From Paludibacteraceae bacterium (lineage in GTDB: Bacteria > Bacteroidota > Bacteroidia > Bacteroidales > Paludibacteraceae): a DNA stretch of 43,513 bases. Below, one piece after another: positions 2 to 42,840 of the stretch. The translations under genes were made by a program, and so were the position numbers. Numbering within the stretch: position 1 is the stretch's first letter; each line of letters begins with the position of its first letter. The stretch spans positions 1-43,513 of the forward strand of contig JAGBZD010000084.1 in assembly GCA_017628395.1 (NCBI GenBank), written 5' to 3'. A model generated the notes under the pieces. That model worked only from the letters and a program-made list of their open reading frames with translations, ran no database searches and had not been told where the DNA came from.

Positions 2-280
2 TTTCACCCTACATACCGTGGTGAAGTAATGGAGGCCACTTATCGTTTGGATTTTTTGTGTTTTTGTAGCGTAATAGTTGAATGTAAGGCAGTTAAGAAG
101 ATAACTTCGGAACATAGAGCTCAATTATTCAATTATTTGCGCTTGACACGTTCAAGAGTAGGAGTCTTAGTTAATTTTGCCAAGAGATATGTAGAAATAG
201 AACGATATTTTTATGATCCATCTACAAGCGAATTGATAACATATGATGGAAAACCATTTATTATAGAGGATGATATATAA
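2..280 (+). CDS. GxxExxY-family protein, C-terminal part (cut by window start)
   Basis: The reading frame is open from base 2, so the real start lies outside the window; the ATG at 29 is internal. The first residues read FHPTYRGEVMEATYRLDF, which carries the GEVMEATY form of the GxxExxY signature, followed by VECKAV and a C-terminal stretch with LVNFAK. This is the usual order of the GxxExxY/PDDEXK_3 family, whose members are small proteins predicted to have a restriction-endonuclease-like fold. The ECK may be the active-site E-x-K, which is inference. The cellular role of the family is unknown. Only about 92 residues are present. It is followed directly by a repeat composite, with no visible terminator. 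Confidence 0.75.
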   Translation, partial: FHPTYRGEVMEATYRLDFLCFCSVIVECKAVKKITSEHRAQLFNYLRLTRSRVGVLVNFAKRYVEIERYFYDPSTSELITYDGKPFIIEDDI

Positions 281-528
281 TCTCTAGCCGTTGGGATGTG
301 TTGTTTCCCAACGGAAGAGTTGTTAAAGTTGTAGTTAAAAATAAACAATGAAATAGTTTTACAACAACAATAACAACATAATCCAACAACATTGCGCTCG
401 TAACAACACAACGAGCGCCCAAGCAGAAAAAAGTGTAATTTAATCCCTAGCCGTTGGGATTTGTTGTTTCCCAACGGAAAAGTTGTTAAATAAAGTTGTT
501 TAAGTTGTTGTTTTAATAAAAATCTTGT
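281..528. repeat. Composite of three variable-stem hairpins upstream of fcl
   Basis: Three hairpins lie in this gap. At 288-314 CCGTTGGGA pairs with TCCCAACGG around TGTGTTGTT. At 394-418 GCGCTCGT pairs with ACGAGCGC around AACAACACA. At 451-477 CCGTTGGGA pairs with TCCCAACGG around TTTGTTGTT. Read on the minus strand, the first and third loops are AACAACACA and AACAACAAA. CAACAAC-rich arms (362-390) and GTTGTT-rich arms (482-513) flank the last two and are themselves roughly complementary. No gene is visible in the gap. Confidence 0.85.
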
Positions 529-1470
529 ATGAACAAAGAATCTAAAATATATGTCGCAGGACACCGTGGGATGGTGGGCTCTGCTATTGTGCGCGAATTG
601 CAGCGCCAAGGTTACACCAACCTCATCACTCGCACCCATGCCGAGCTTGACCTCTGCCGCCAAGAGGCGGTCGAACACTTCTTCGCCACCGAGCAACCCG
701 AGTATGTCTTCCTCGCTGCCGCCAAAGTAGGCGGCATCATCGCCAACCAAACGGCTCTCGCCGACTTCATGTACGACAACATGATCATGGAGATGAATGT
801 TATTCACTCGGCTTGGCAGAACGGCTGCAAGAAACTCCTCTTCCTTGGCTCCAGTTGTATCTACCCCCGCCTTGCGCCTCAACCCATGACCGAGAGCTGC
901 CTGCTCACCAGCGAACTGGAGAAGACCAACGAGGCATACGCCCTGGCGAAGATCTCTGGCCTCAAATACTGCGAGTACCTCAATCGCCAGTATGGCACCG
1001 ACTATATCTCCGTGATGCCAACCAACCTCTATGGTCCTAATGATAACTACCACCCTGAGCACTCGCATGTGCTACCTGCACTCATCCGCCGCTTCCACGA
1101 GGCCAAGGAGAGTGGGGCAGAACAGGTCATCTGTTGGGGCGACGGTAGTCCGCTGCGTGAGTTTCTGTATGTGGACGACTTGGCGAATCTCTGCGTGTTC
1201 CTCATGAATAACTACTCGGGCAATGAGACAGTGAACGCTGGTACAGGTAAGGAATTGACTATCAAAGCGCTGACCGAACTGGTGGCGAAAGTGGTGGGAT
1301 ATGAGGGTCGCATCGAATGGGATACGACGCGTCCCAACGGCACCCCTCGCAAGCTATTGGATGTCAGCAAGGCTACCAAACTCGGCTGGACATATACCAC
1401 CGAACTCGAAGACGGCATCCGCATGGCGTATGACGACTTCCTCCACAACCCTATGCGCGCCGAGCGATAA
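529..1470 (+). CDS. fcl: GDP-L-fucose synthase
   Basis: This NADPH-dependent epimerase/reductase converts GDP-4-keto-6-deoxy-D-mannose to GDP-L-fucose in the cytoplasm. At 313 residues it has the usual length for the family. The extended-SDR dinucleotide motif GHRGMVG is at residues 11-17, GSSCIYP begins near residue 107 (S108, C110), the catalytic Y137 and K141 lie in YALAK, and H180 occupies the position of the E. coli GDP-fucose synthase histidine. All expected catalytic residues are present. The partner GDP-mannose 4,6-dehydratase is not in the window and may lie upstream. The gene is visibly richer in G+C than the polysaccharide genes further along. A hairpin composite fills its 5' side and no clear promoter box was found. 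Confidence 0.95.
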   Translation: MNKESKIYVAGHRGMVGSAIVRELQRQGYTNLITRTHAELDLCRQEAVEHFFATEQPEYVFLAAAKVGGIIANQTALADFMYDNMIMEMNVIHSAWQNGCKKLLFLGSSCIYPRLAPQPMTESCLLTSELEKTNEAYALAKISGLKYCEYLNRQYGTDYISVMPTNLYGPNDNYHPEHSHVLPALIRRFHEAKESGAEQVICWGDGSPLREFLYVDDLANLCVFLMNNYSGNETVNAGTGKELTIKALTELVAKVVGYEGRIEWDTTRPNGTPRKLLDVSKATKLGWTYTTELEDGIRMAYDDFLHNPMRAER

Positions 1471-1490
1471 GTGAGTTCGCGGGGATGATA

Positions 1491-1806
1491 CCGCCCACGG
1501 ATCTCACAGATTGACACGGATGCACGGAATATCATCTCCTACTCGCTATGCTCGAGATATCTAAACTATCCAAACTAAAACAGAAATATGGTAACAACAA
1601 CTTAAACAACATAAATCCAACAACTTGTTGCGCGCAAAACAACACATTGCGCGCTCAAGAGAATATACCCCTGAGCCGCTGGGGTGCGTTCTTATCTCAC
1701 ATTCGTTCGAACGATTATTAGTTCCCCAGCGGAAATGTTGTTAATGTTGTTTTTAATAACCTACACTCCGTTAAATTATTGGTTTAGATTGTTTGGATTT
1801 CTGCAC
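1491..1806. repeat. Left arm of a ~315 bp inverted repeat containing two variable-stem hairpins
   Basis: This segment is a near-identical reverse complement of 8769-9085. It contains hairpin 1630-1654 (GCGCGCAA / TTGCGCGC, loop AACAACACA) and hairpin 1676-1732 (CCGCTGGGG / CCCCAGCGG), plus CAACAAC arms and the phrase TTTAGATTGTTTGGATTTC. The two arms differ mainly by a ~30 nt palindromic unit that sits at a different place in each. No coding sequence is visible. Confidence 0.85.
1691..1720. mobile_element. 30-nt palindromic mini-element inserted in a hairpin loop
   Basis: The loop of the hairpin at 1676-1732 should read TGCGTTGTT, judging from the reverse-complement copy at 8843-8869. Here it is split as TGCGTT plus 30 nt plus GTT. 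The extra unit runs from CTTATCTCAC through the palindrome CGTTCGAACG to ATTATTA. Related units are at 8987-9016 and, reversed, at 26053-26080. Confidence 0.7.
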
Positions 1807-2069
1807 AAGCGCTACAAGTAGCGCGAGTCAAAACCTTAGAAGAGTTCGAAGAGCATTACATTTCGACCATGGGGAGATAAGTTCATTAGACCGTTCCGAA
1901 GGACATCGTAAAATAGTGGTAGTGAGTAGCAGCATGCTACGATAGTGGATGGTAGATTGGGAGATGGGGAAGTTTACTTACACCATCGACCAAGATACCA
2001 TACACAGGAGATATGAGCAACATATCTCAACTACCACTAATATCCTTGAATTGACGAAAATTGTCTTAA
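1807..2069. repeat. Structured non-coding segment sharing a right end with the 4550-5146 element
   Basis: The right end reads TTGACGAAAATTGTCTTAA (2051-2069), identical to 5128-5146. Stems visible inside are GCGCTAC/GTAGCGC (1807-1822), GTAGCagcaTGCTAC near 1926-1940, GATATG/CATATC near 2010-2030, and AGTGGTAGT (about 1916-1924) with ACTACCACT (about 2030-2038), which closes over the others. A ladder hairpin (ATGGTA, TTGG, ATGG, AAGT with their complements in reverse order) lies near 1950-2004. No matching TTAAGACAATT left end is visible, so this copy may be truncated. Confidence 0.55.
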
Positions 2070-2092
2070 TATACAATCCTCGTTATTTTTGA

Positions 2093-2195
2093 ATATTTTT
2101 GTAGCGAGCGCATCGCGCAAGGAAAATAGGTATCCTTGGTTCAGTGTAGATCAGTGTAATCAGTGGGAGATTATATGTCCTGCGGAAGGATGTCC
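2093..2195. repeat. Interspersed repeat (GTATCCTTGGTTCAGTG family), reversed copy
   Basis: This is the reverse complement of repeats at 8609-8769 and 9030-9153. It shares a small GCGC-atc-GCGC hairpin (2107-2116), the phrase AAGGAAAATAGGTA and a run containing CAGTGTAATCAGTGGGAGA. No gene overlaps it. Confidence 0.75.
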
Positions 2196-2228
2196 TCAGT
2201 GGGCAATCAATGCACTAAGTTAGATAAA

Positions 2229-2326
2229 ACCCATATCCCCACCATACCTGTTATAGGTAGAGTGGGGATAATTCATAGCCTTATAACCTCATAGCCTTAT
2301 AACCTCATAGCCTTATAACCTCATCG
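2229..2326. repeat. GTGGGG hairpin followed by a 16-nt tandem repeat
   Basis: CCCCAC-cat-ACCT pairs with AGGT-aga-GTGGGG at 2237-2267, giving a bulged stem. It is followed by three copies of CATAGCCTTATAACCT at 2274-2321. The repeats abut, and run into, the 3' end of the DUF5675 gene. On the minus strand the hairpin lies about 45 nt past that gene's stop and could act as a terminator, but no strong T-run follows it. Confidence 0.7.
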
Positions 2327-3074
2327 CCTCGTCGCTCAGTTCTCTTTCTTCTCTGAGTCGCTGGGCTCGCTCAAGGGATTCGGCGATGTGTGCTTGCTGT
2401 TCATAACTGCACGCAAGATCAGCAAAAGGATACGGATCAGGGCTTTCCAATTGAATGTAAATTTCTTCATACGGATTCTGTTTAATATAGTTTAACAAAT
2501 AAGTGCGGAGTTCTTCCAGTCGCTTGCGGGAGGATAGTAACCTATCAGGCGAAGAGGCGATGAGGCTAGTTGAGGCAGCATCGCTGCCGTCCTCTAAACA
2601 AGACAGATCGCCGACCAAAATACAACCTGTGGTGTGCTCGATGGTATTGCCCGCGTGGATGCGAATACCTGTGCGAAAGCCACCACAAACAGGAGTATTA
2701 TTTTGTTCAACAACATTCCGCTCGCCAACGCCGCGAGCGGCAAGGGAGGTGTTGTCTTCTATGAGCGCGGCAGGAAGTTGATTGCCGCGCAATGGTTGTT
2801 GATGTGTGTTGTTGATGTTGTTGGAGGTACAAATGCCTGTTTGTTTTTGATAGCCAATGACATGATCAAGAATGGGCAGCACCTCCTGAAAGCGAGGGGA
2901 GAAGGTCATACGCAGGCGGTAAAAACCATCGGGGATGGCGTAGTCCATGTGTTCCAAAGTGTGCATGGAGAGTTGGTACTGGTGGAGGCCTTCCTCGGTG
3001 ATGAGGCTGTCCACATAAAGGGTGCCCGTGAGGGCGGAGCCTTGAGGTTGATTGCGGATTAAACGGATTAGCAT
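2313..3074 (-). CDS. DUF5675-family (lysin-like) protein with repeat-derived inserts
   Basis: The 253-residue product has the DUF5675 layout: an N-terminal LIRLIRNQPQG strand, a central AIPDGFY segment, then GIRIHAGN (136-143) and GCILVGD (150-156). H140 and C151 are the obvious candidate catalytic pair. The family is common in phages and integrated elements and is suspected to act on peptidoglycan, which remains inference here. The core is interrupted at about residues 83-128 by a stretch encoded by two variable-stem hairpins, and again near 157-178 by GGCGACGAGGCGA-type repeat sequence (LIASSPDRLLSS). The start is taken at the ATG at 3074; the longer frame needs a TTG. With the holin-like gene upstream it resembles a lysis cassette. 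Confidence 0.75.
   Translation of the reverse strand: MLIRLIRNQPQGSALTGTLYVDSLITEEGLHQYQLSMHTLEHMDYAIPDGFYRLRMTFSPRFQEVLPILDHVIGYQKQTGICTSNNINNTHQQPLRGNQLPAALIEDNTSLAARGVGERNVVEQNNTPVCGGFRTGIRIHAGNTIEHTTGCILVGDLSCLEDGSDAASTSLIASSPDRLLSSRKRLEELRTYLLNYIKQNPYEEIYIQLESPDPYPFADLACSYEQQAHIAESLERAQRLREERELSDEAMRL
2696..2830. repeat. Hairpin pair inside the DUF5675 coding region
   Basis: CCGCTCGC pairs with GCGAGCGG at 2718-2740 around CAACGCC. GCGCGGCA pairs with TGCCGCGC at 2765-2790 around GGAAGTTGAT. CAACAAC and GTTGTTGATGTTGTTG arms flank them. The second loop is identical to that at 5206-5231, where the stem is completely different. The reading frame stays open through the whole composite. Confidence 0.85.
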
Positions 3075-3164
3075 AAATGAAGGGTTTTTTAATAACAAAA
3101 ATTATAAACAATTAAACCAAAAATTATCCAAAATTTAACGGGGATGTGCTCTACCAAAATCATA

Positions 3165-3454
3165 AAATACATGTTGATACTTGCTATCTCCTTGCCCTAC
3201 GGGCAGAAATCTAAATAAATCTTTTTGCCACACTATAGCCACGCTTTTCTCGGTTCTCCGAAATCAATTGCAGCCGCTCCTTCGTCGAAATGGGCTTGCA
3301 AGATGAAACTCGCATGCGAGTTTGGCTTGCCGCCATTTCTCCTCTCCCCAAAAATTAGAAATTTTCGGGGACCCCGATAGGCTTCATGCGAAACTCGTGC
3401 GCTTAATCTTAAGTAAATGCGGAGAAGACAATAGGAAGTGTCAACTGATATATA
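3165..3454. mobile_element. MITE-like element, copy 1
   Basis: The left end AAATACATGTTGATACTT and right end AAGTGTCAACTGATATATA are inverted repeats of one another with some mismatches. The internal text, from CTTGCCCTACGGGCAGAAATC to the CTATAGCC region, matches 6935-7137 closely. This copy carries about 115 extra bases (3283-3396) with two hairpins, AACTCGCATGCGAGTT and CCCCAAAAATTAG/AAATTTTCGGGG. No transposase is encoded. The gap up to 3568 is AT-rich and holds nothing else recognised. Confidence 0.6.
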
Positions 3455-3568
3455 AATCCCAAAATTATAAACAATTAAACCAAAAATTATCCAAAATTAT
3501 TTATACTATTTCGCTGATATAAATTTTGAGTAATTTTGTATAATAAATTGTAATTTTTGGAGGAGTTA

Positions 3569-3754
3569 TTATTCCTTGTAGCGATATTTATAATCCATAC
3601 CTAAGAGCGCTCCACAAAAAGTCAGAATTTCTCCAAATGCAGTAAGGATGCTTGGGTGAATTTCGCCCAGTGGTTGTGCGATGAACCCGCATGCGAGCAA
3701 TGCGCACCCGAAAGCGCACATTGCTACAGATACTATGAGTTGGATTTTTCTCAT
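3569..3754 (-). CDS. Small holin-like two-helix membrane protein
   Basis: This 61-residue protein has two hydrophobic helices (about 5-27 and 35-54) and a charged tail ending YKYRYKE. The segment PLGEIHPSILTAFGEILTF is characteristic of small membrane proteins found in Bacteroides phages and integrated elements, commonly next to cell-wall hydrolase genes; I recall that family from general knowledge, not from a search. Its start is 9 nt past the stop of the upstream minus-strand gene, so the two are probably co-transcribed. A role in releasing or regulating the DUF5675 lysin is inferred from position only. Confidence 0.65.
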   Translation of the reverse strand: MRKIQLIVSVAMCAFGCALLACGFIAQPLGEIHPSILTAFGEILTFCGALLGMDYKYRYKE

Positions 3755-3763
3755 TGCGTTTTT

Positions 3764-4090
3764 TTACGCTTTCTTCCACTCTAAATTCCAGAGGAATCGG
3801 TAGAGGGTTTTGTACTCGGTTTGTGCCTTGAAAGCTGCCAAATCTTCGTTGATCTTGCTTGGGTCTTTCATGCGGGCGCGGACGGCTTGTCCTACGGTGG
3901 TGAACTTTGCCTTTTGTGTGGTTTCCTTCTCGGTGTAAGGATGGTTCTTCAGGTCGCGTTGCCCAGTGGCGGTGCAACCGCGTTGGCGTTTGCCCCAACT
4001 GCGGGTGACTGCTGTGAATTTTTCTTTTTTGCCAAAGATTTTGCCTGAGGCGTTATCCACAGGCGCAAGGTAAGTGATTGATCCAGCCAT
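3764..4090 (-). CDS. Small SIxGKL-type paralogue, copy 4
   Basis: This 108-residue protein begins MAGSITYLAPVDNASGKIFG and is basic, with no membrane segment. It shares a pattern with the products at 5385-5702, 6174-6518 and 6566-6895: a short hydrophobic start, a G-K motif, an F-x-x-R/K strand with a following GK, a proline-containing loop, a helical middle ending in DP (MKDPSKINEDLAAF), and a C-terminal L-x-x-F(L/I) helix. It is the most diverged of the four. The start at 4090 fits that pattern; the in-frame ATGs further upstream read through repeat sequence. The pattern recalls DUF6266-like Bacteroidetes proteins, but function is unknown. Confidence 0.6.
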   Translation of the reverse strand: MAGSITYLAPVDNASGKIFGKKEKFTAVTRSWGKRQRGCTATGQRDLKNHPYTEKETTQKAKFTTVGQAVRARMKDPSKINEDLAAFKAQTEYKTLYRFLWNLEWKKA

Positions 4091-4330
4091 ATCGTCGGAA
4101 TTGGCTTGTCGCAAAGAAATCGCTTGGCGATTTAAGGCGACCGCCATTCCTCCTCTTAACTCGTGCTCACAAAGCACCCCCAAAATCAGAGATTTTTCGG
4201 GGGCCCCGCTTGAAGCCCTCGTTAGTTAGCGGCTTTCGCCGCCATAGGACGGTTTCCCGCCTGTCAGGGACTTCATGGGTTTTAGAGCGAGGAGGTCCTC
4301 CATTCCGTGGAGGGGGTTAATGGTTAATAA
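4091..4330. repeat. Hairpin-bearing repeat upstream of copy 4
   Basis: This region resembles 3283-3396. Both have GGCTTG...GCCGCCATTYCTCCTC followed by a C-run/G-run hairpin: CCCCCAAAATC/GATTTTTCGGGGG at about 4177-4203 here, CCCCAAAAATT/AATTTTCGGGG there. The shared frame encloses different inner stems. No gene was found from here to 5384. The stretch 4331-4484 is AT-rich and contains only a reversed copy of a TATTTTTGTAG-type repeat (about 4378-4432). Confidence 0.55.
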
Positions 4331-4484
4331 TTTTGATTGTTTGATGAGTGAGAAGACAATGCAAAGGATATGTTTTGTTTATACAACAATACGCTGCGCT
4401 TCGCTTGCTACAAAAATATTCAAAAATAACAGGTCATTGATTAAGACTATATAAACAATGCAAGGGTTATTATTTACAACAACA

Positions 4485-4549
4485 CAAACAACATAAATCA
4501 ACAACATTCCGCTGGGGAACAACACACCCCAGCGGCAAGGGGTAGTGTT
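4485..4549. repeat. Variable-stem hairpin (left half of a split composite)
   Basis: CCGCTGGGG (4509-4517) and CCCCAGCGG (4527-4535) enclose AACAACACA. CAACAAC arms lie on the left, and CAAGGGGTAGTGTT follows on the right. The element at 4550-5146 starts directly after. Confidence 0.85.
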
Positions 4550-5146
4550 TTAAGACAATTTATGTCAATTTATCGTCAATTATTGTCAATCCATGGATAT
4601 ATTTGGTGCTGATGCCAAACTTCGTTTAGGCATCGCCAGATAAATGGCTAATCCATAAGCCGTTCAAATAGGATTTGACGGCTCCTGTCTTATCCATTTC
4701 TCTTGCTCTCATCCTTCGTCTGAGAGCCGCACCAAATAGATTTCAATGTTCGTCCCGAACTATTTTAGATGTTCTTCGAACCTTTCAATGGATTTATCTC
4801 CCTTTGGTCGAATTTACTATGTTCTCCGAACTGACTATCGGTTTTGACTCGCGATACATGTATCGCTCCTGCATCTGCCTTCGGCATCTGCGTCAAAACA
4901 CTGCCTCTGGCAGTAATGTACAAGGGATTGTTCCATGAATGATAATTCTGTGAGAGTCACTCCGTGAAAAATGATTCTGTTGAAAAACTATTTTGGTGAA
5001 GCCTATCATAGATAGGCGAGATAAAGTGGATGTTCGTGCGAATCGATGCTTGCATCAGTGAGCAACCAAACAGTCACTTTATCAGATGATGTCGCATACG
5101 ACAGCATCACCAAAATATACCCTTGCATTGACGAAAATTGTCTTAA
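4550..5146. mobile_element. 597-bp non-coding element with inverted ends and multi-branched stems
   Basis: It begins TTAAGACAATT (4550-4560) and ends AATTGTCTTAA (5136-5146). Just inside the left end are spaced TGTCAATT/CGTCAATT copies (4563-4590). The body is a dense run of short stems. One domain is closed by ATTTGGTGC/GCACCAAAT (about 4600 and 4730) and contains GATGCC...GGCATC, GCCA...TGGC, a CAAAT/ATTTG hairpin and GCTCTCA/TGAGAGC. Another is closed by ATTTTGGTGA/TCACCAAAAT (about 4990 and 5107) and contains GCCTATC/GATAGGC, GATAAAGTG/CACTTTATC and TGTCG/CGACA. The only long frame (4675-4938) reads through hairpins and is not convincing. Confidence 0.6.
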
Positions 5147-5179
5147 AAATATATCACTTTATTTTGGGATTGATATACT

Positions 5180-5285
5180 ACTTGACACTATGTGTTTCTT
5201 CTTGAGCGCCCCAGGAAGTTGATTGGGGCGCAAGTTGTTGACAAAGAAATGTTGTTATTGTTGTTGATTAACATAATTCTTGTCG
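5180..5285. repeat. Variable-stem hairpin (right half of a split composite)
   Basis: GCGCCCCA (5206-5213) and TGGGGCGC (5224-5231) enclose GGAAGTTGAT, followed by GTTGTT-rich arms to about 5270. The same loop occurs at 2773-2782 between unrelated stem sequences. At 5336-5368 a second small hairpin, GGGCTcaaaAGCCC, lies between TATTTTTGTA and GTATTTTTGT. Confidence 0.8.
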
Positions 5286-5384
5286 TTTGTGTTTGCAGTG
5301 TCAATATGTATATAGTTCCCTTATTTTTAATTATTTTTGTAGGGCTCAAAAGCCCGTATTTTTGTATCGAAACATCATCCGTTA

Positions 5385-5702
5385 TTACGCACCAGGTTTT
5401 TGATAGATCTGCGCGATGATGTACCCGCGGAGGGTGATGTACTTCTTTTGTGCTTTGAATTTCGCCTCGTAGGTGGCGCGTTGCTCTGGATCAGCGAGGA
5501 TCGTGGTTGCTTGCGCTTGGGCTGCTTTTAAGGCGTTACGCACTGCCTGTTGCGCCTCGGAGTTACCGCCATCATAAGGGTTTTTCACGCGCACACCAAT
5601 GGTGGCATTGTCTTTCTTGCGGTTGCGGAAATGAATCTCATCCGAACCAGAGAACTTCTTCTGAACAGAGTCGAAGGGAGTGGAATTCTTGATAATAGCC
5701 AT
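5385..5702 (-). CDS. Small SIxGKL-type paralogue, copy 3
   Basis: This 105-residue, basic, soluble protein begins MAIIKNSTPFDSVQKKF. It contains an FRNRKKDN strand, then a helix with ILADPEQRATYEAKFKAQ and a C-terminal ITLRGYIIAQIYQK. DPEQRATYE and the LR-x-x-I-x-AQIY ending align with the copies at 6174-6518 (NPEQ, LRDFIYAQIY) and 6566-6895 (DPTQRAAYE, LRKFLFQK), so these are diverged paralogues. Function is not known. The ATG at 5702 is preceded by an AT-rich tract with AGTTTAAAG repeats. Confidence 0.65.
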   Translation of the reverse strand: MAIIKNSTPFDSVQKKFSGSDEIHFRNRKKDNATIGVRVKNPYDGGNSEAQQAVRNALKAAQAQATTILADPEQRATYEAKFKAQKKYITLRGYIIAQIYQKPGA

Positions 5703-5991
5703 ACTGTTTTAGTTTAAAGTAGAAAGATTAAAGTTTAAAGGCTGGGATTATTGTGCACGGATAATCACAGCGATACATTTGCGTAGTGGTTACCGAAATC
5801 GAGTACAAAGGTACTACATTTTCAGGGGCTCTTGCGGGGAAATGCCACACAAGTCCGCACAACGCTGCACTAAGCCAGACTAAACCAGATAAATAGCTGT
5901 GTTTTTTTGGGAAGACAACATCAACAACTTGCGCGCAAATCAACATCCTTGCGCGCTCAAGCGAGTATCACGAATCATCTGCTGCATGGAA
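5703..5991. repeat. Intergenic stretch with one variable-stem hairpin
   Basis: The hairpin GCGCGCAA / TTGCGCGC spans 5931-5956 with loop ATCAACATCC, is preceded by CAACATCAACAAC and followed by CTCAAGCGAG. This loop is close to the reverse complement of GGAAGTTGAT seen at 2773 and 5214. The 72-codon minus-strand frame here reads through the hairpin and has no family features. Confidence 0.75.
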
Positions 5992-6171
5992 TCACATATC
6001 AATGCAGTATTTCTCGCAGAGGTACTTCACTACCACGGGGGGCAGGTACTTTGTTTTCGGTTGTACATTGTTGGCACGCAGGAACTCTCGGTCGGTCTTC
6101 AACCATCGACGGAAGGTGTCCACACTCACGCCCGCTGCACGGGCTAATTCGGATTTGGTATATGATTTCAT
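5992..6171 (-). CDS. DUF4248-family protein
   Basis: This 59-residue product begins MKSYTKSELARAAGVSVDTF and continues RRWLK, an AlpA/excisionase-like helix-turn-helix, then LPPVVVKYLCEKYCIDM. This is the standard layout and length of DUF4248 proteins, which in Bacteroidales lie beside VirE-type genes and close to capsule loci. It probably binds DNA (inferred from the helix-turn-helix). The start codon lies 2 nt past the stop of the upstream minus-strand gene, so the two are translated from one message. The context (VirE-type gene upstream, polysaccharide cluster beyond) is the usual one for the family. Confidence 0.9.
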   Translation of the reverse strand: MKSYTKSELARAAGVSVDTFRRWLKTDREFLRANNVQPKTKYLPPVVVKYLCEKYCIDM

Positions 6172-6173
6172 AG

Positions 6174-6518
6174 TTACGATTCAAAAGTAACGGATGCATA
6201 AATTTGCGCATAAATAAAATCACGAAGACGGCGATAGGATTTCTGCCACGGGTTATGCACCTGTTGTGATTCGTATGCCTGCCAAAGCAGAAAATAATGC
6301 TGTTTTTGCTCTGGGTTGCGGAGAATGGTTTGTACCATTTGATTGCATTTGCGTACGCGTTGGTAATGACGGGATTGATTGGGGGTAGGCGCATGCATCC
6401 ATGGACGCATGCGTATGCCTAATTGTTTGCCATAGCGGACGGTAAAATAAACATTATCTAACTTGTGTAACTTGCCCCGAATGGAGGCAATGGGAGGAAG
6501 GGGTTTTATAAGTGCCAT
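6174..6518 (-). CDS. Small SIxGKL-type paralogue, copy 2
   Basis: This 114-residue, strongly basic protein begins MALIKPLPPIASIRGKLHKL. The IASIRGKL motif matches IASISGKL in the copy at 6566-6895. It continues VYFTVRYGKQLGIRMRP, a helical middle with ILRNPEQKQHY, and LRDFIYAQIY near the end. It lies 47 nt downstream of copy 1 and 2 nt before DUF4248, so it sits in the middle of one minus-strand operon. No membrane or secretion signal is visible. Function is unknown. Confidence 0.7.
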   Translation of the reverse strand: MALIKPLPPIASIRGKLHKLDNVYFTVRYGKQLGIRMRPWMHAPTPNQSRHYQRVRKCNQMVQTILRNPEQKQHYFLLWQAYESQQVHNPWQKSYRRLRDFIYAQIYASVTFES

Positions 6519-6565
6519 AGATGTCTTTTTTAGGGTATGATGAGGGTATGATGGATATTGCAGAT

Positions 6566-6895
6566 TTATTGTATATTGGATGGTTTGAGTGGGAAAATTT
6601 CTGCCATTTTTTGAAAAAGAAACTTACGCAAGGTCATTTTTTGCGCACCCATCGTATTGCGTTGTAATTGCTCGTAAGCAGCACGCTGCGTAGGATCGGA
6701 CATGATGGCATTGACCAATTTGCAGATTGTGCCAAATTGCTGCTGATGATGGATTTCTTGTTTTGAGGGTTGACGAATTGTTCGTTGAGGTGCTTTCGCC
6801 ATGTAGGTTTTGCCAGATGCCGATTTGCGAAAAACGACATCACCGAGTTTACCACTGATGGAGGCAATGCCAGCCATAAAAATAACTTTTGCCAT
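6566..6895 (-). CDS. Small SIxGKL-type paralogue, copy 1
   Basis: This 109-residue basic protein begins MAKVIFMAGIASISGKLGDV and continues VFRKSASGKTYMAKAPQ, then a helix with IMSDPTQRAAYEQL and LRKFLFQKM. The SISGKLGDVVFRK-x-GKTY pattern is the clearest version of the four-member family here and recalls the start of DUF6266-like Bacteroidetes proteins; I cannot confirm that family. It is probably the first gene of the run 6895 to 5992. The VirE-type gene lies upstream across a MITE-like element and a long inverted repeat. Confidence 0.7.
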   Translation of the reverse strand: MAKVIFMAGIASISGKLGDVVFRKSASGKTYMAKAPQRTIRQPSKQEIHHQQQFGTICKLVNAIMSDPTQRAAYEQLQRNTMGAQKMTLRKFLFQKMAEIFPLKPSNIQ

Positions 6896-6934
6896 AGGAA
6901 TGATAGTTTTGATAGTTGTTTATTTTTTTGGAAC

Positions 6935-7137
6935 TATATACATGCTGACACTTCATATCTCCTTGCCCTAACGGGCAGAAATCTAAATAAATCTTTTTTG
7001 CCACGCTATAGCCGCGCTTTTAAAAGGTACTCCGTAATAAATTGCAGCCGTCTCCTCACATCGCCTTGAGCGATGCTCGTGCGACTAAATCTTCAGTAAA
7101 TGTGGCGGGAATAACACAAAGTGTCAACTGGTATATA
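6935..7137. mobile_element. MITE-like element, copy 2 (203 bp)
   Basis: The ends are 19-nt inverted repeats: TATATACATGCTGACACTT (6935-6953), and AAGTGTCAACTGGTATATA (7119-7137), which pair at 16 of 19 positions. The interior matches 3165-3454, including CCTTGCCCTAACGGGCAG, ATCTAAATAAATC and ATTGCAGCC. This copy lacks the ~115 extra bases found in copy 1. No coding potential is seen. Confidence 0.65.
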
Positions 7138-7161
7138 AATCCCTAATTTTTTTTCTTTGCG

Positions 7162-7257
7162 GGCCATCGGGCCATCGGGACATCACTTTTATAAAACTCA
7201 CACCCGTACGCGCGTCCGTGAGTTTTATTATTTCGTTGTCCCGTTGGTCCGTTGGCC
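7162..7257. repeat. Long imperfect inverted repeat beside the VirE-type stop codon
   Basis: The outer arms at 7162-7182 and 7237-7257 (GGCCATCGGGCC... and ...GGTCCGTTGGCC) pair with a few mismatches, mostly tolerable as G-U. The inner arms are ATAAAACTCAC (7191-7201) and GTGAGTTTTAT (7218-7228). It abuts the stop codon of the minus-strand VirE-type gene, so it may end or stabilise that message. Confidence 0.7.
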
Positions 7258-8586
7258 TTATTCTTTTAGCCTATTTTTGAGCGATTGCAGTTCATCCACC
7301 GTTCGTTCATAGACCACCCATCCGCGTCGTTTAACACCGTCTATAGCAGCTCGGTGTGATGTGTATCCTTTGTTGGATAATATATTGCCCAATTGCCGCA
7401 AACCGATAGGTTTCTTGATATTGCCGTAGGTCACCAGTTTCTCGCTGATTTCTGCTGTCGTCATAAACTTGCCTTTGCCTATCGCAGGAATATCAAATAG
7501 CAGCGTGAGCAATTGCTCCTCGCCCTCTTGCACACGAAACTCCTCGTTATGTTGCTCCAGAACCTCTATCTCGTCGGGTTCGAACCAATAGGTGAAGTAT
7601 CCGCTTTCTACCAATTGTTTGGCTTGTGCGTATAGCACTTGGTAGGGGAGGGTAGTGTAGAATGGATTCTGTATGGATTCCACTTCAAAAGGTAGCCAAC
7701 GGCGATTGCCCGTGATATCGGTGAGAAATTCTCGGTTGTTGGTACTTGCACAGAAACTTGCCAATCGTACGCGGCGTTCTTTGAGGCGACCGTATGCGGC
7801 GCGCTCGTTGATGTCGGTAGAGGTGAGTAGCGACTTGACGATATTCATCTCACGGCCGCAGATAGCATCGAGTTCGTCGATATTGAGCATTATGTTCTCG
7901 CATAGGCGCAGACGGTCGTCTTTGCTGATTTGTCCAGATAGAGGTAACTTGCTGCTATAGTCGCGCAGTTCGGGAGGGATAAGGTGGTCGAGCCAAGTGG
8001 TCTTGTATATACCTTGGCGTCCCACGAGTACCAGTACGGTATGATTGACTACCTCGTCCTTCATCCAACTCGCCACCATCGCTACAAACCATTTCTTGAA
8101 GCACTGGCGCCAGTATTGATTGGCTTCTTCGCCGCCGATGACGGTGACTTGTTTGGCTATGAGGTCTATCCAGTCGATTTCATTAGAGGTGGAGGGAAGC
8201 GATTGTAGATAGGCGCGTGGTGGGTGTATGTCAGGGACTAAGTATGAGCGCAGCGCGGTGATAATTTCGCTTACGCCTATGCAACAACCCGTCTCTTGTA
8301 CGCACTGGCAGACCATGGTGTTGATGTCTTTGTCGGTCATGTTGCGCCAACAGTCTGGTGTAGGGTTGTGTAGTGGTGGTATAGGATTGTGTAGCATTGT
8401 TTTTTCTGCGGAAGACAATTCTGCACCATTCGGAACCAATCTACACGATTCTAAACTATCCAAATTTTTGATTTGGAGGCGATCGGTCACAATATCGTGA
8501 CGAATGTGATCGAATTGCAGGTAGTTTTCTTTCAGCCACTCACAAGCCTGTACTTGCCGTAAGTCTTTATTCTTTTTCTTACTCAT
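7258..8586 (-). CDS. VirE-type (virulence-associated E) P-loop ATPase
   Basis: This 442-residue product has the VirE/PF05272 ATPase core of the primase-helicase type. Walker A GRQGIYKTT is at about 189-197, the Walker B region NIMLNIDELD at 231-240, a sensor-like STN at 281-283 and the arginine pair GNRRW near 293-297. Many Bacteroidales relatives also carry a longer N-terminal VirE_N or primase-like domain; here only about 180 residues precede the ATPase, including a tandem LHNPIPPLHNPTP (65-77). The start is taken at 8586 (MSKKK); an in-frame extension to 8736 is translated repeat sequence. The gene probably replicates or mobilises DNA, which is inference. DUF4248 and a nearby capsule locus are its usual company. 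Confidence 0.85.
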   Translation of the reverse strand: MSKKKNKDLRQVQACEWLKENYLQFDHIRHDIVTDRLQIKNLDSLESCRLVPNGAELSSAEKTMLHNPIPPLHNPTPDCWRNMTDKDINTMVCQCVQETGCCIGVSEIITALRSYLVPDIHPPRAYLQSLPSTSNEIDWIDLIAKQVTVIGGEEANQYWRQCFKKWFVAMVASWMKDEVVNHTVLVLVGRQGIYKTTWLDHLIPPELRDYSSKLPLSGQISKDDRLRLCENIMLNIDELDAICGREMNIVKSLLTSTDINERAAYGRLKERRVRLASFCASTNNREFLTDITGNRRWLPFEVESIQNPFYTTLPYQVLYAQAKQLVESGYFTYWFEPDEIEVLEQHNEEFRVQEGEEQLLTLLFDIPAIGKGKFMTTAEISEKLVTYGNIKKPIGLRQLGNILSNKGYTSHRAAIDGVKRRGWVVYERTVDELQSLKNRLKE

Positions 8587-8608
8587 GATTAGAGATTTTT
8601 GTTCATTT

Positions 8609-8769
8609 GTGCTCGTCCGTGGGAGATTATATTCCCACTGATTTACACTGAACCAAGGATATGTATTCCGTGCATCCGTGTCCATCCGTGCTCGTCCGTG
8701 GGAGATTATATTCCCACTAATTACACTGATTAACACTGAACCAAGGGTACCTATTTTCCTTGCGCGATG
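8609..8769. repeat. Two tandem copies of the CATCCGTG...ACTGAACCAAGG repeat
   Basis: Two ~80-nt units each contain CTCGTCCGTGGGAGATTATA, TTCCCACT and ACACTGAACCAAGG, ending near the small hairpin TTGCGCgatGCGCAG. The same text recurs at 9030-9153 and reversed at 2093-2195. It lies between the VirE-type start and the right arm of the long inverted repeat. Confidence 0.75.
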
Positions 8770-9085
8770 CGCAGAAATCCAAACAATCTAAACCAATAAT
8801 TTAACGGCGTATGGGTTATTAAAAACAACATTAACAACATTTCCGTTGGGGAACAACGCACCCCAGCGGCTCAGGGGTATATTCTCTTGAGCGCGCAATG
8901 TGTTGTTTTGCGCGCAACAAGTTGTTGGATTTATGTTGTTTAAGTTGTTGTTACCATATTTCCGTTTTAGTTTGGATAGTTTAGATTTCTTATCTCCCTT
9001 TGGTCGAACGATTTTTTCTCAAGCGCAGCGAGTAGGAGATGATATTCCGCGTATCCGTGTCACTCCGTGTTCATCCGTGGGACAT
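8769..9085. repeat. Right arm of a ~315 bp inverted repeat, two variable-stem hairpins
   Basis: This is the reverse complement of 1491-1806. Hairpin 8843-8869 has stem CCGTTGGGG/CCCCAGCGG, with one position that would be U-G, around AACAACGCA. Hairpin 8891-8915 has GCGCGCAA/TTGCGCGC around TGTGTTGTT. The ~30-nt palindromic unit missing from the hairpin loop here is instead at 8987-9016. Confidence 0.85.
8987..9016. mobile_element. 30-nt palindromic mini-element, second insertion
   Basis: The left arm of the inverted repeat reads, in this orientation, TTTAGATATCTCGAGC. Here about 30 nt (TTCTTATCTCC through TTGGTCGAACGATTTTT) intervene between TTTAGAT and TCTCAAGC. The unit is related to 1691-1720. 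Confidence 0.65.
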
Positions 9086-9153
9086 ATCTTCTCCCACTGA
9101 TTACACTGATCTGCACTGAACCAAGGGTACCTATTTTCCTTGCGCGATGCGCC
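9030..9153. repeat. Third copy of the CATCCGTG...ACTGAACCAAGG repeat
   Basis: It contains ATCCGTGTCACTCCGTG, CATCCGTGGGACATATC, TCCCACTGATTACACTGATC and GCACTGAACCAAGGGTACC, ending at TTGCGCgatGCGC. It runs up to the stop codon of the small gene at 9155. Confidence 0.75.
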
Positions 9154-9154
9154 G

Positions 9155-9481
9155 TCAGTGGAAGGTAATCATACAAGCCGCTTTATTTTTGTAATCCACA
9201 TAGATTTCTTTGTATTCATCTATCATATCGTACTGATGGTGAGTGGGGTTATGGTATTGCTGGTGAAACTTTTTGTAGCATACATTCTCGCCCAGTATTT
9301 CGGTCAGTAGTCTTGCAAATTCGCTTAGGTTACTCATCACATCTGCTCTGGAAATGATTTTGCTTTCTTCCATGGCGTGGATATGTGCCGACAGTAGTAC
9401 ATATCTTCCATATCGGTTCTTTTGGTAGTCGTTGAGTACCATTTCCTGAATCAACTGCTCGAATAAATGTTTGTTTTGCAT
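9155..9481 (-). CDS. Small protein of unknown function
   Basis: The 108-residue product (MQNKHLFEQLIQEMVLNDYQ...) is mostly helical and acidic to neutral, with YGRYVLLSAHIHAM in the middle and no membrane segment or known motif. The stop codon sits at the junction with a dispersed repeat, so the last residues (ACMITFH) may be repeat-shaped. It is transcribed away from the polysaccharide cluster. I do not recognise the family. The ATG at 9481 is the only good start; a TAATTTTG-like box reads on the minus strand at 9577-9584 without a clear -33. Confidence 0.5.
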   Translation of the reverse strand: MQNKHLFEQLIQEMVLNDYQKNRYGRYVLLSAHIHAMEESKIISRADVMSNLSEFARLLTEILGENVCYKKFHQQYHNPTHHQYDMIDEYKEIYVDYKNKAACMITFH

Positions 9482-9718
9482 GATGGATTGTTATTAGTTG
9501 GTTGTTAATTAATGATTTATGGATTCCTGTGCTTGTACAGTAGGTGTGGATTATCGTGTACATGCGAATCACGCGACAAAATTACTACAATTGCGTGAGA
9601 CGGAGGGGGGAGAAAAAGGGGAGATTTTTGCGTTGTTTAGCAAAAATGTGCAAATTTTCGTGATTTTTGCTAAAAATAGGGCTATTTTTGGTGAAAATTT
9701 AGAAAAATCCCACAAAAA

Positions 9719-9750
9719 TTTGTGTATCTAAAAAAAAATCCGTACCTTTG
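9719..9750 (+). promoter_or_regulatory. Bacteroidetes-type promoter of the polysaccharide cluster
   Basis: TTTG at 9719-9722 and TACCTTTG at 9743-9750 are separated by 20 nt, the Bacteroidetes -33/-7 arrangement. They lie 27 nt before the first cluster gene. The rest of the gap from 9482 is AT-rich with nothing else recognised. Confidence 0.8.
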
Positions 9751-9777
9751 CGCAATTAGAACAATAGGTTGTGAATA

Positions 9778-10764
9778 ATGACTCTCTCAATCATCACCAT
9801 AAACTACAACAACGCCGAAGGCTTGCGCAAAACGCTTGCCTCTGTGGCTTCGCAAACTTATCCGCATATAGAGCATATCATTGTGGATGGGGGCTCCAAG
9901 GATGGTTCCGTCGAGATATTGAGAGCCTACCCCCAACCCCTTCCTAAAAGAAGGGGAGAGATTACTGAGGATAAATTTCCAACACAAAATCCAGCGCATA
10001 AGGTGCTATGGATTTCGGAAAAGGATAATGGCATCTATAATGCCATGAACAAGGGTATCCGCATGGCGACGGGGGATTATATCCAAATATTGAATTCAGG
10101 AGATATATTAGCTGCACCTGATGTTACGGAGCGAATGATGGCTGCGTTGCAAAATAAAATTAAACAACAACATCAACAACATAATATCAACAACCCTTCC
10201 GTGGTGGAACAACACACCACCACGGCAAGTGAAAACAACACCTCATCGCTTTACCAAAATCGCCCTGCAATTTTGTACGGCAATATGATCAAAGAATACC
10301 CCGATGGTCATCGGGTGAAAGATACCTGTGGTGGAGGCGATTACACGCCTGAGTCGTTTTTGTATTTTTACAGAGGAACACTCAATCACGATTGTGCGTA
10401 TATTCGTGGTGATTTGTTTGAGAAATATGGTTTGTACAATGAGCAAATGAAGATTTGCTCCGATTGGGAATGGTATGTGCGAACTATAGTGTTGGGAGGA
10501 GAAAAGGCATGCTATACGGACATTGATGTGACGATATTTGATATGATGGGCGTGTCAGAATCGGGTGGTAAGAACAGAGCATTGATTCAGCAAGAGCGCC
10601 GAGAGTATTTAGAAGCCATATTGCCTGCTTCAGTTCTTCGCGACTATGATAAATATGCTTTTCCAATAGAGCAGTATCAGCGTTTGAAGAAATATCATTT
10701 GTGGGGATTAGTATATCTGGTGGAGAGAATGATTTTTAAATTTGAAAAATGGTTAAAAAAATGA
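9778..10764 (+). CDS. Family 2 glycosyltransferase (WcaE-like) with two repeat-encoded inserts
   Basis: This GT2 enzyme would transfer a sugar from a nucleotide donor at the inner face of the membrane during glycan assembly. The N-terminus SIITINYNNAEGLRKTL and IIVDGGSKDGS (34-44) form the nucleotide-binding part, and GIYNAMNKGI (85-94) followed by YIQILNSGD is typical of the WcaE-like branch. CSDWEWYVR lies further on. Residues about 51-68 (QPLPKRRGE...) come from a CCCCTTC/GAAGGGG hairpin and residues about 128-157 (QQHQQHNINNPSVVEQHTTT...) from a variable-stem hairpin. Both are in frame and both fall between conserved blocks. The gene probably still works, which is inference. It starts the operon. 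Confidence 0.9.
   Translation: MTLSIITINYNNAEGLRKTLASVASQTYPHIEHIIVDGGSKDGSVEILRAYPQPLPKRRGEITEDKFPTQNPAHKVLWISEKDNGIYNAMNKGIRMATGDYIQILNSGDILAAPDVTERMMAALQNKIKQQHQQHNINNPSVVEQHTTTASENNTSSLYQNRPAILYGNMIKEYPDGHRVKDTCGGGDYTPESFLYFYRGTLNHDCAYIRGDLFEKYGLYNEQMKICSDWEWYVRTIVLGGEKACYTDIDVTIFDMMGVSESGGKNRALIQQERREYLEAILPASVLRDYDKYAFPIEQYQRLKKYHLWGLVYLVERMIFKFEKWLKK
9927..9960. repeat. CCCC-hairpin repeat inside the GT2 gene
   Basis: CCTACCCCCAACCCCTTC, a short loop (9944-9949), then GAAGGGG. The same design with a different stem (CCCCTCCC/GGGAGGGG) is at 29719-29738 inside the aldehyde dehydrogenase gene. Confidence 0.75.
10163..10245. repeat. Variable-stem hairpin inside the GT2 gene
   Basis: CCGTGGTGG (10199-10207) and CCACCACGG (10217-10225) enclose AACAACACA. 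CAACAACATCAACAAC lies upstream, and CAAGTG then AACAACACC downstream. The nine-base stem is unlike that of any other family member in the window. Confidence 0.85.
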
Positions 10765-11726
10765 AACTAAGCATAATAGTACCCATATACAATGTAGCAC
10801 CATATCTGCGCAAATGCGTGGACAGTTTGCTTGCGCAAGATATTTTAGATTACGAAATCATTTTGGTAGATGATGGATCGCCTGACGAATGCCCTCGGAT
10901 TTGTGATACATATGCGGAAAAGCATAGTAATATTCATGTCATCCATCAAGAGAATGCTGGTCTCTCTGCAGCTCGCAACACAGGTGTAGCAAAAGCGCAA
11001 GGCGACTATATCTGGTTTGTAGATTCGGATGATTATGTAGAACCCAATGTGTTGGGCGTATTGATGGAACAGATAGAGCGCGATACATTGGATATACTGC
11101 GTTTCCGCTATCAGAATGTGAGAGAGAATGGAGAAGCATTTGTTCCGCATGAAGGTATGAAGGTGGATTATAATGATTATAGTTGTGTACCTACGGATGG
11201 ATTATCTTTTCTAACTAATCGTGTTGGAATACAATGTTATGCATGGCAGTTCATTGTGCGTACATCTTTATGTAAAACAGAATTATTTACTCATGGTATT
11301 TATTTCGAAGATACAGAGTGGACACCGCGGGTATTGTTACGAGCTAAGCGTGTAGCATCTTCGGAATTGGTGGTGTATAATTATCTATGGCGCGAAGGTA
11401 GCATTACGCTAAGTCAAAACGATGTTCAAAAGCAACGTAAGCAACTACACGATAAGATAGATTTGCTACGAAAACTCAATGATTTGGGGAATCAGGTAGC
11501 AGATCGCCGTTGGTTTGATGGTATGATTAGCGGCTTGATGGTGAATATCGTAGGCATTATCGCTTCTACATTCTATGCGGAGCGCAAAAAATATATACGA
11601 CCAATTAAAGCGATGCACTTATTGCCACTTTCTACTTATCATATTGCACCGTGTGCACAACGAAAAGTAAAGTTGATAAATTTTTCAATTGATTTGGTAG
11701 TGATGCTGGTGCATCTAAAGAGATAG
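10761..11726 (+). CDS. Family 2 glycosyltransferase
   Basis: About 321 residues from the ATG at 10761, which overlaps the preceding stop as ATGA; an upstream ATG at 10749 would add four residues. The GT-A fold start MKLSIIVPIYNVAPYLRKC is followed by IILVDDGSPDECP and AGLSAARNTG, and then WFVDSDDYVEPN carries the D-x-D-type metal-binding motif. The C-terminal half is less conserved and has no transmembrane helix. It is probably a peripheral enzyme adding one sugar to the growing repeat unit. There is no repeat-derived insert. It is followed by 80 nt containing TAATGGGCAATAG-like repeats. Confidence 0.9.
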   Translation: MKLSIIVPIYNVAPYLRKCVDSLLAQDILDYEIILVDDGSPDECPRICDTYAEKHSNIHVIHQENAGLSAARNTGVAKAQGDYIWFVDSDDYVEPNVLGVLMEQIERDTLDILRFRYQNVRENGEAFVPHEGMKVDYNDYSCVPTDGLSFLTNRVGIQCYAWQFIVRTSLCKTELFTHGIYFEDTEWTPRVLLRAKRVASSELVVYNYLWREGSITLSQNDVQKQRKQLHDKIDLLRKLNDLGNQVADRRWFDGMISGLMVNIVGIIASTFYAERKKYIRPIKAMHLLPLSTYHIAPCAQRKVKLINFSIDLVVMLVHLKR

Positions 11727-21712: not shown

Positions 21713-22023
21713 TTTTGAAACAAAAATACGGCATTTTCAATGCCTACAAAAATAAATAAAAATCAAAGGATTATGTAGAATGACAATTATTGACAATTAG
21801 GGCGTCAATTCATGTCAATTCGAGAGTGTATTTGTTTTTGCTCAAAAGAATGCAGTACGCTGCATTGGTGAGCAAAACCAAGAGAATGAACATAGAAACA
21901 TAACATCAAGAACATAACTTTGTTTTGTTCATCCAGCAGCGAGCTGCTCTTTATGAGCAAAAGAAAGTATGAAACAAGATTTTTTGATATTTATGTAGCG
22001 AGTGTAACGAAGCGTATTTTTGT
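21713..22023. repeat. 311-bp direct repeat, left copy, beside the DUF4062 gene
   Basis: Nearly identical to 23753-24064. It contains GGCATTttcAATGCC between TAC/GTA and T-rich flanks, an array of GACAATT/GTCAATT units (about 21781-21822), the nested stem GTTTTTGCTCA with TGAGCAAAAC enclosing AATGCAG/CTGCATT, and AGCAGCgaGCTGCT. It is non-coding and resembles the left end of the 4550-5146 element. Confidence 0.85.
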
Positions 22024-23689: not shown

Positions 23690-24075
23690 AAATATTTTTG
23701 TATATTTTTGTAGCGAGTGTAACGAAGCGTATTTTTGTTAAAAACAGAATACATTTTGAAACATAAATACGGCATTTTCAATGCCTACAAAAATAAATAA
23801 AAATCAAAGGATTATGTAGAATGACAATTATTGACAATTAGGGCGTCAATTCATGTCAATTCGAGAGTGTATTGGTTTTTGCTCAAAAGAATGCAGCACG
23901 CTGCATTGATGAGCAAAACCAAGAGAATGAACATAGAAACATGACATCAAGAACATAACTTTGTTTTGTTCATCTAGCAGCGAGCTGCTCTTTATGAGCA
24001 AAGGAAAGTATGAAACGAGATTTTTTGATATTTATGTAGCGAATGTAACGAAGCGTATTTTTGTTAAAAAACAGA
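23690..24075. repeat. 311-bp direct repeat, right copy, plus a 40-nt tail repeat
   Basis: The main copy is 23753-24064. A TAGCGAGTGTAACGAAGCG tail (GTATTTTTGTTAAAAACAG) occurs both before it (23711-23748) and at its end (24038-24074). The first copy at 21713-22023 ends with the same tail text but then diverges. No gene is visible in 23619-24109. Confidence 0.8.
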
Positions 24076-42732: not shown

Positions 42733-42840
42733 ATCTTTAGTTTGTAGTATTGCCTACTCTTTGTCGGATTTTCGGCACACTCCGTTGGTTAATTATTTAA
42801 TTTATTGTTTGTTAATGTGAGTTCGTGTATATACATACAA

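Follow-up and report, generated by a model that had tools for sequence, protein, structure and literature searches.

Interspersed hairpin repeats with compensated stems and their association with GxxExxY nuclease genes in Paludibacteraceae

Short palindromic repeats of the REP, BIME and REPIN families are tied to Y1 transposases (RAYT, TnpA-REP), and complementary stem changes have been reported within such families, as described in excerpts of PMC3733652 and PMC6006769. According to excerpts of the former, CGTC palindromic repeats (including the Rickettsia RPE sequences) "apparently lack a dedicated transposase", and the lack of a RAYT for REP-like repeats is named as a gap. Here we describe a family of hairpins in a contig of a Paludibacteraceae bacterium, which belongs to a group known from ruminant guts (GenBank assembly GCA_017628395.1, contig JAGBZD010000084.1). 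The window, that is, the whole stretch of DNA analysed, is this entire 43.5-kb contig (43,513 nucleotides, nt), which belongs to an incomplete genome (2.41 Mb in 129 contigs, 81% complete). The hairpins form a dispersed family whose members occur in both orientations and in inverted pairs, and we read them as copies of an interspersed DNA element of REP-like kind. At three sites they bracket genes for GxxExxY proteins, predicted nucleases of the PD-(D/E)XK type. Such nuclease-linked hairpins may represent a new kind of repeat-spreading system.

The element is ~45-70 nt long and is built, in this order, of two or three [A/G]ACAAC motifs, TT, a G+C-rich stem of 8-9 bp, a CAAC-containing loop mostly of 7-11 nt, and (Y)CAAGG. 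The first two [A/G]ACAAC motifs are 9 nt apart, a long form adds a third one 13 nt further, and the conserved zone extends from ~36 nt upstream of the stem to 7 nt downstream of it. A model-free rule, which permits one mismatch of any kind per stem, parsed 142 copies and missed some of the 166 matches of the covariance model R2 (see below). The loop is AACAACACA in 48 copies, ATCAACTCCC/TTCC/ATCC in 47 and CAACATT/CAACACC in 15, besides minor variants. Stems start with CCG, GCG or TCG, and the foot usually goes with this start, TCAAG being found with GCG, and CAAG with CCG or TCG. After a greedy filter that retains copies with flanks less than 75% alike (compared without gaps over the preceding 60 nt and the following 40 nt) 125 of the 142 copies survive. 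Neighbouring copies less than 200 nt apart form 25 pairs, 11 with their CAAG ends facing, two with their arms facing and 12 in the same orientation (seven on the plus and five on the minus strand).

A short palindromic repeat with many copies, largely intergenic and with inverted pairs, is what defines a REP, and like the repeats of the REP/BIME/REPIN and RAYT systems ("REPtrons") the present one is a short palindromic interspersed DNA element found singly and in inverted pairs (excerpts of PMC3733652 and PMC6006769). Its foot is CAAG (CTTG on the opposite strand) rather than GTAG or CGTC, neither of which is in the consensus (downstream (T)CAAGG, 5' side TT), and its long CAAC-bearing loops and CAAC arms set it further apart from REPs. 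G.T pairs are nearly absent here, whereas they are often observed in GTAG REPs, as stated in excerpts of the GTAG paper (PMC3733652, PMC6006769). The CGTC-tagged repeats are likewise REP-like with stems of 8-9 bp, occur mostly as inverted dimers and sometimes inside open reading frames (ORFs), but have another foot and short loops of 4-5 nt (excerpts of PMC3733652). Mitochondrial hairpin repeats (RHE and double-hairpin elements) are dispersed, possibly mobile hairpins as well; the sponge RHEs, however, have conserved stems and varying loops, the reverse of the present family (excerpts of PMC2800124).

A preliminary description of the window, made from its sequence alone, had reported at least 13 hairpins, and a stem-loop scan recovered all 13 of them (span 283-10230, Table 1). 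Twelve of the 13 stems have the exact complement claimed for each, while the stem at 8843 contains one T.G mismatch. The loop word AACAACACA occurs eight times in the window compared to 0.44 times in shuffled sequence, and the 7-nt loop of the 2718 hairpin was missing from the original list of loops. No family of Rfam 15 matches the hairpins of the window at gathering score, in line with the remark that no named family was known. Covariance model R1, built from six copies (alignment A2), recovers 11 of the 13 window hairpins (it misses 5206 and 5931), and R2, built from 60 matches, recovers all of them. Confinement of the copies to the first 10.3 kb holds for the window, where nothing credible lies beyond (best match at 26237 with E 1.7 by R1, and none at E<=0.05 by R2), but not for the genome, in which R1 gives 40 matches at E<=10 (38 at E<1) spread over many contigs.

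The wider search by covariance model that had been proposed along with these claims showed that 13 of the 178 genus genomes carry the element (R2, E<=0.01); the best 35 candidates per genome were scored, so that G000 has at least 35 and G119 at least 32 matches. In the 862.6 kb of sequence surrounding the hits R2 has 166 matches. An order-wide R2 scan yielded no match in 392 other genomes, with the best 15 candidates per genome taken and with strict filters that weak matches may escape. An exact-pattern scan of named genomes found nine stretches in metagenome-assembled genomes labelled Paludibacteraceae (RGIG7219, 7370, 7483 and 125), Bacteroidales (SIG114, four stretches) and "Alistipes" (RGIG9478, with four hairpin copies within 8 kb); the sources on record for the RGIG genomes are the cecum or colon of buffalo, cattle and yak. 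One exact-pattern scan of viral contigs gave no match, and a relaxed pattern search of 100 relatives returned mainly chance matches, backward-pattern controls being similarly numerous.

That the stems are compensated, as had been claimed, is borne out by covariation. In alignment A4, which comprises the best 150 of the 166 R2 matches (141 distinct rows), 97.2% of the pair cells pair and all nine pairs vary on both sides. Covariation scores 0.582 in A4, compared to 0.151 (sd 0.010) in shuffled and at most 0.069 in slid alignments; A4 was fitted to the structure, which favours this score, and the stems were also found by the model-free rule. One of five covariation measures, that of further pair types, was equalled by 100 of 500 shuffles. 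Among the 1174 pair cells of the 142 rule-found copies 1158 are Watson-Crick, three G.T, eight A.C and five other, and G.U-type pairs occupy five of 1159 cells in A4. Pairing is thus kept while the stem sequence differs among copies, which agrees with the proposal that structure, and not the stem sequence, is selected or copied. Since mismatches are rare and show no wobble bias, it is probably DNA rather than a transcript that is read.

The stems are not, however, "freely changing", as they had been called. The 142 copies have 42 stems (31 among fully paired copies), ten of which account for 95 copies, and orthologous sites of unchanged hairpin type hardly differ in their stems. In 11 comparisons at ten such sites, picked for a recognisable same-type hairpin on both sides, 175 of 178 stem bases match, while outside the element 2083 of 2349 aligned bases (89%) do. 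Four sites with a hairpin of another type were excluded from this count (L173 versus L103/L210, L231 versus L172, L240 versus L287, and L175 versus window 288). At the first one G119 carries GCGCTGGGG while G014 and G054 carry GCGCGTGC, the arm being alike at 44 of 45 positions; at the second one different hairpin subtypes stand between the same genes; L240 and L287 differ in the hairpins on both sides of a nuclease gene, and L175 and the window in the hairpin downstream of it. Stems therefore seem to jump, being exchanged whole at a site, rather than drift, and the variety of the family would come from differences between copies and from exchange at sites, not from steady drift.

Hybrid stems were seen at L165, L180 and L175 5486-5512 (CCGCTCGC with GCTCGCGG, or CCGCGAGC with GCGAGCGG); they combine arms of two perfect types, and two of the inner pairs are broken, which looks like the replacement of one arm. 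Twenty comparisons of sites that had been classed as empty include degenerate, interrupted or different hairpins (L240/L287 and L231/L172 among them), and their number is given no weight here. Of six comparisons classed as differing, two (L241 with L186 and with L199) represent copies of a repeated cassette.

Clustering of the ORFs near hairpins showed that small ORFs adjoining hairpins at four loci encode GxxExxY proteins. All four score 68 to 128.5 bits with TIGR04256 (curated cut-off 35 bits) and also match PF13366, so that by the curated cut-off the hairpin-flanked proteins belong to the same family as the GxxExxY proteins of TIGR04256/PF13366. D70, E80, K82, Q94 and Y98, which we take to be the catalytic residues, are invariant in the 34 rows of alignment A5 and conform to the sequence definition of PD-(D/E)XK nucleases; no solved structure matched the GxxExxY protein by sequence. 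The fragment of such a gene at the start of the window (TIGR04256 8.7e-19, PF13366 4.3e-17) has the D, E-x-K and Q-x3-Y motif and shares 86% identity with the L175 gene over 92 residues. Purifying selection acts on the gene, with a pN of 0.08 and a pS of 0.75 for the L175/window pair, in which synonymous sites are saturated.

The gene stands between inverted copies of the repeat, in a hairpin(+)-gene-hairpin(-) unit that is clear in L240 and L175 and corresponds to the REPtron arrangement of an enzyme gene between inverted copies of its own repeat. In L177 the upstream hairpin scores 39.2 bits, and a clear copy (27.5 bits), in the same orientation as the gene, lies beyond the inverted downstream copy that adjoins the gene. 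In L287 the upstream hairpin scores 36.8 bits; in the window the hairpin at 283-328 is on the downstream side and the upstream side is lost at the contig end. As L175 and the window are one locus, and L240 and L287 another, the units occupy three distinct sites. Where L175 has its unit, the genes on either side are separated by 2 nt in L190 (in G025), with no unit between them. Of 704 other ORFs of at least 100 amino acids (aa) in hairpin loci, only three have a hairpin within 130 nt on each side.

The hairpin-flanked genes form one clade of these nucleases. On a tree built from 45 GxxExxY proteins a single change suffices for the five of them, which was reached in none of 500 shuffles, and the hairpin-flanked clade was found in 80% of bootstraps (support 78/86). 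Proteins at least 53% identical to that of L175 are encoded in six of the 178 genus genomes (G119, G198, G000, G058, G148 and G121; next best identity 45%), and every one of these six also belongs to the 13 genomes with hairpins (P=4.2e-8, ignoring relatedness). TIGR04256 as a whole has a match in ten of the 13 hairpin genomes and in 90 of the 165 others. A gene whose presence tracks the copy number had been asked for in the preliminary description. The L175-like subclade tracks the presence of hairpins but not their copy number (see below), and Y1_Tnp, of a type named there, does not track them.

Bracketing by repeats is frequent among GxxExxY genes in general. The two flanks share a repeat (at least 35 bits) in 28 of 44 unique GxxExxY genes, namely in four of four of the hairpin clade and 24 of 40 others, and in five of 187 size-matched ORFs drawn from the same repeat-rich loci; before duplicates were removed, the figures were 32/53 and 6/300. 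The genes tested were those of 30 loci and of the hairpin genomes, a subset of all matches. At the level of the order (26 of 28 genes from 30 loci) 17 of 26 GxxExxY genes compare to three of 33 neighbouring ORFs. When 92 gene pairs with orthologous surroundings were left out, the flanking repeat family was shared by 14 of 28 gene pairs with at least 60% protein identity and by eight of 826 pairs below that value. TIGR04256 exceeds its cut-off in 62 of the 119 genomes sampled across the order and in 96 of the 178 of the genus. A repeat adjoining another GxxExxY gene of the source genome occurs at 17 places in that genome.

A second repeat family, AAATAC-palindrome-TACAAAAATAATTAAAAATCAAG, likewise has conserved flanks and a varying palindrome (nine copies, six paired stem types; window 21724-21744 and 23765-23785, L267, L274, L275 and L206). 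Some of its copies (L267, L274, L275) adjoin another GxxExxY clade, and the family shares the varying-stem property of the hairpins. In other Bacteroidales families CACAGAG/CTCTGTG-type and similar repeats were seen to bracket GxxExxY genes (L308, L313, L317-L321, L325 and others). As in REPtrons, there are several repeat families per genome and each enzyme is tied to its own repeats, which flank the enzyme gene; the REPtron enzyme, however, is an HUH Y1 transposase, and the candidate enzyme here is a PD-(D/E)XK GxxExxY protein (excerpts of PMC3733652 and PMC6006769).

We lean, by a narrow balance of probability, towards a system that resembles a REPtron but is based on a PD-(D/E)XK nuclease, with the hairpin-flanked GxxExxY clade as the cognate enzyme that spreads the repeats, a proposal derived from sequence comparison. 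The nuclease would recognise a folded single strand by CAAC in the arms and the loop and by the CAAG foot, and recognition would need a paired stem of nearly any sequence. The enzyme would cut at or near the hairpin, and repair would copy the element, or the whole hairpin, from another copy; cutting and repair would spread the elements, put one stem type in place of another at a given site and eliminate mispaired stems. Hairpin genomes without an L175-like gene could then hold relics of an enzyme that was lost or is unassembled. In a wider proposal, which we put forward tentatively and at somewhat less than even chances, GxxExxY proteins would form a second class of enzymes that spread repeats, independent of HUH transposases, and each of their clades would maintain a repeat family of its own across Bacteroidales, much as RAYTs maintain REPs; hairpin families would be recognised by their fold and unpaired motifs, by which the stem sequence is freed.

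Several observations weigh against a role of the nuclease. Seven of the 13 hairpin genomes have no L175-like gene, among them G014 (98% complete, 18 hairpin matches), and TIGR04256 has no match in the hairpin genomes G147 (94% complete, 15 hairpin matches), G025 and G149. No difference in hairpin copy number was seen between the six genomes that have the gene and the seven that lack it (p=0.43, best 35 candidates per genome). Other repeats flank the closest sister genes (G058, G121, G148), which means that the clade behind the six-of-six tracking is broader than the one with hairpin flanks, and the 13 hairpin genomes may be relatives. Support of the hairpin-flanked clade is moderate. Some flanking copies are weak, such as the downstream ones in L177 (16.1 bits, E 0.22) and L287 (18.5 bits, E 0.07), and with only three distinct sites the units may share ancestry in one old unit. 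In the comparison with 704 other ORFs, these were judged on the 142 rule-found copies, while for the GxxExxY loci model matches were added by hand. Near-identical orthologues (e.g. L276, L278, L294 and L298) among the 44 genes and 28 pairs make these counts non-independent.

The main alternative is that host processes (template switching, or ectopic recombination between CAAC arms) or another enzyme spread the hairpins, and that GxxExxY genes are bracketed passengers. Such passengers would account for the genomes that lack the gene, for a copy number unrelated to its presence and for there being just three unit sites; the window locus, moreover, shows other repeats and duplications. We nonetheless consider it rather unlikely, because passengers would not be expected to be chosen so selectively (28/44 GxxExxY genes bracketed by matching repeats compared to 5/187 ORFs), to have a repeat family that follows the gene clade, or to be under purifying selection.

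The covarying stem, the conserved loop and flanks, and stems better conserved than their surroundings at orthologous sites of unchanged type would also suit hairpins that act as RNA (in mRNA stability, termination or protein binding) and are selected as folded transcripts. The same holds for the position of copies between tandem ORFs, 42 of which lie in the sense of the genes and 29 antisense. Against this reading, both orientations and inverted pairs occur, and G.U-type pairs are as rare as stated above (3/1174 cells against eight A.C; 5/1159 in A4). In addition, 26 of the 142 copies lie inside mechanical ORFs of at least 130 aa (some of them possibly spurious), and one copy is in frame within a glycosyltransferase gene, whose copy in G119 has the same stem and whose copy in G054 has no hairpin. 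We regard a function as RNA as an improbable reason for the family.

It is very doubtful that the hairpins are the cargo of a terminal-inverted-repeat transposon or of a miniature inverted-repeat transposable element (MITE), without mobility of their own. A ~200-nt hairpin-bearing stretch with TTGACAC/GTGTCA-like ends is present at ~3076 in L239 and absent at ~2752 in L214; the stretch resembles a MITE that carries a hairpin as cargo, and similar flanks, judged by eye, recur at several other copies. Against this stand the 125 of 142 copies that pass the flank filter, the end of conservation near the hairpin, and other sites that differ by a hairpin without such ends. Ordinary REPs moved by a RAYT or IS200-type Y1 transposase, since lost or unassembled, would fit the size, the inverted pairs and the REPtron-like arrangement but are scarcely credible, given the absence of a GTAG or CGTC foot and a PF01797 match in two of 13 hairpin genomes compared to 66 of 165 others.

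As a candidate mobiliser Y1_Tnp/RAYT was thus rejected: PF01797 has no match in G000, G119, G014, G147 and G054, and at its cut-off of 23 bits G121 is just above (25.6 bits) and G025 below (21.6 bits). VapE-like and HU-like cassette genes were also considered as associated genes and were taken as co-occurrence; of the 36 members of the HU-like cluster, which come from ten genomes, 16 have a hairpin within 600 nt.

For REP-like repeats without a RAYT, the gap stated in excerpts of PMC3733652, a widespread nuclease family situated between clade-specific repeats is a concrete, testable candidate. If the proposed system is real, it would give a role to a protein family, TIGR04256, on which a literature search, as far as the sources were accessible, gave almost nothing (the same being true for PF13366), with no link of GxxExxY proteins to interspersed repeats found. 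The stem data, in turn, bear on how perfect palindromes alter both arms nearly without wobble intermediates.

Table 1. Hairpins and adjoining nuclease gene fragment in the window (stem, position at which the stem is listed).
Feature	Coordinates	Strand	Stem	Remarks
3' part of GxxExxY gene (PD-(D/E)XK nuclease, TIGR04256/PF13366)	2..280	+		cut by contig start
hairpin	283..328	-	288	stem CCGTTGGGA, loop AACAACACA; inverted, directly 3' of GxxExxY gene
hairpin	381..423	+	394	stem GCGCTCGT, loop AACAACACA; CAAC arms from ~362
hairpin	446..491	-	451	stem CCGTTGGGA, loop AACAACAAA
hairpin	1615..1660	+	1630	stem GCGCGCAA, loop AACAACACA; inverted pair with 1671..1746, CAAG ends facing
hairpin	1671..1746	-	1676	stem CCGCTGGGG, 39-nt loop (~30-nt insert with TCGTTCGAACGA); stem-loop 1676-1732
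hairpin	2705..2745	+	2718	stem CCGCTCGC, loop CAACGCC; inverted pair with 2759..2804; inside ORF 2313-3098(-)
hairpin	2759..2804	-	2765	stem GCGCGGCA, loop ATCAACTTCC; R2 match
hairpin	4496..4540	+	4509	stem CCGCTGGGG, loop AACAACACA
hairpin	5200..5243	-	5206	stem GCGCCCCA, loop ATCAACTTCC; R2 match
hairpin	5919..5961	+	5931	stem GCGCGCAA, loop ATCAACATCC; R2 match
hairpin	8829..8874	+	8843	stem CCGTTGGGG/CCCCAGCGG (one T.G), loop AACAACGCA
hairpin	8885..8930	-	8891	stem GCGCGCAA, loop AACAACACA; inverted pair with 8829..8874
hairpin	10185..10230	+	10199	stem CCGTGGTGG, loop AACAACACA; inside glycosyltransferase family 2 ORF 9778-10764

Hairpins with long loops, which have inserts of ~30 nt or more, were seen at window 1676-1732, L073 1051-1126 and L172 ~10766-10873, and the TCGTTCGAACGA-bearing insert of the first resembles window 26058-26090. 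The window stretches 1505-1807 and 8768-9069 are inverted repeats of each other, 87-98% alike in blocks, each with one inverted hairpin pair. The 7 kb between them contain VapE-like (7258-8736), DUF5675 (2313-3098) and small HU-like and helix-turn-helix (HTH) ORFs, and ORFs of these kinds recur near hairpins in other genomes. The sole match of the window to Rfam at gathering score is the DUF805b RNA (RF02914) at 42751-42785 on the minus strand.

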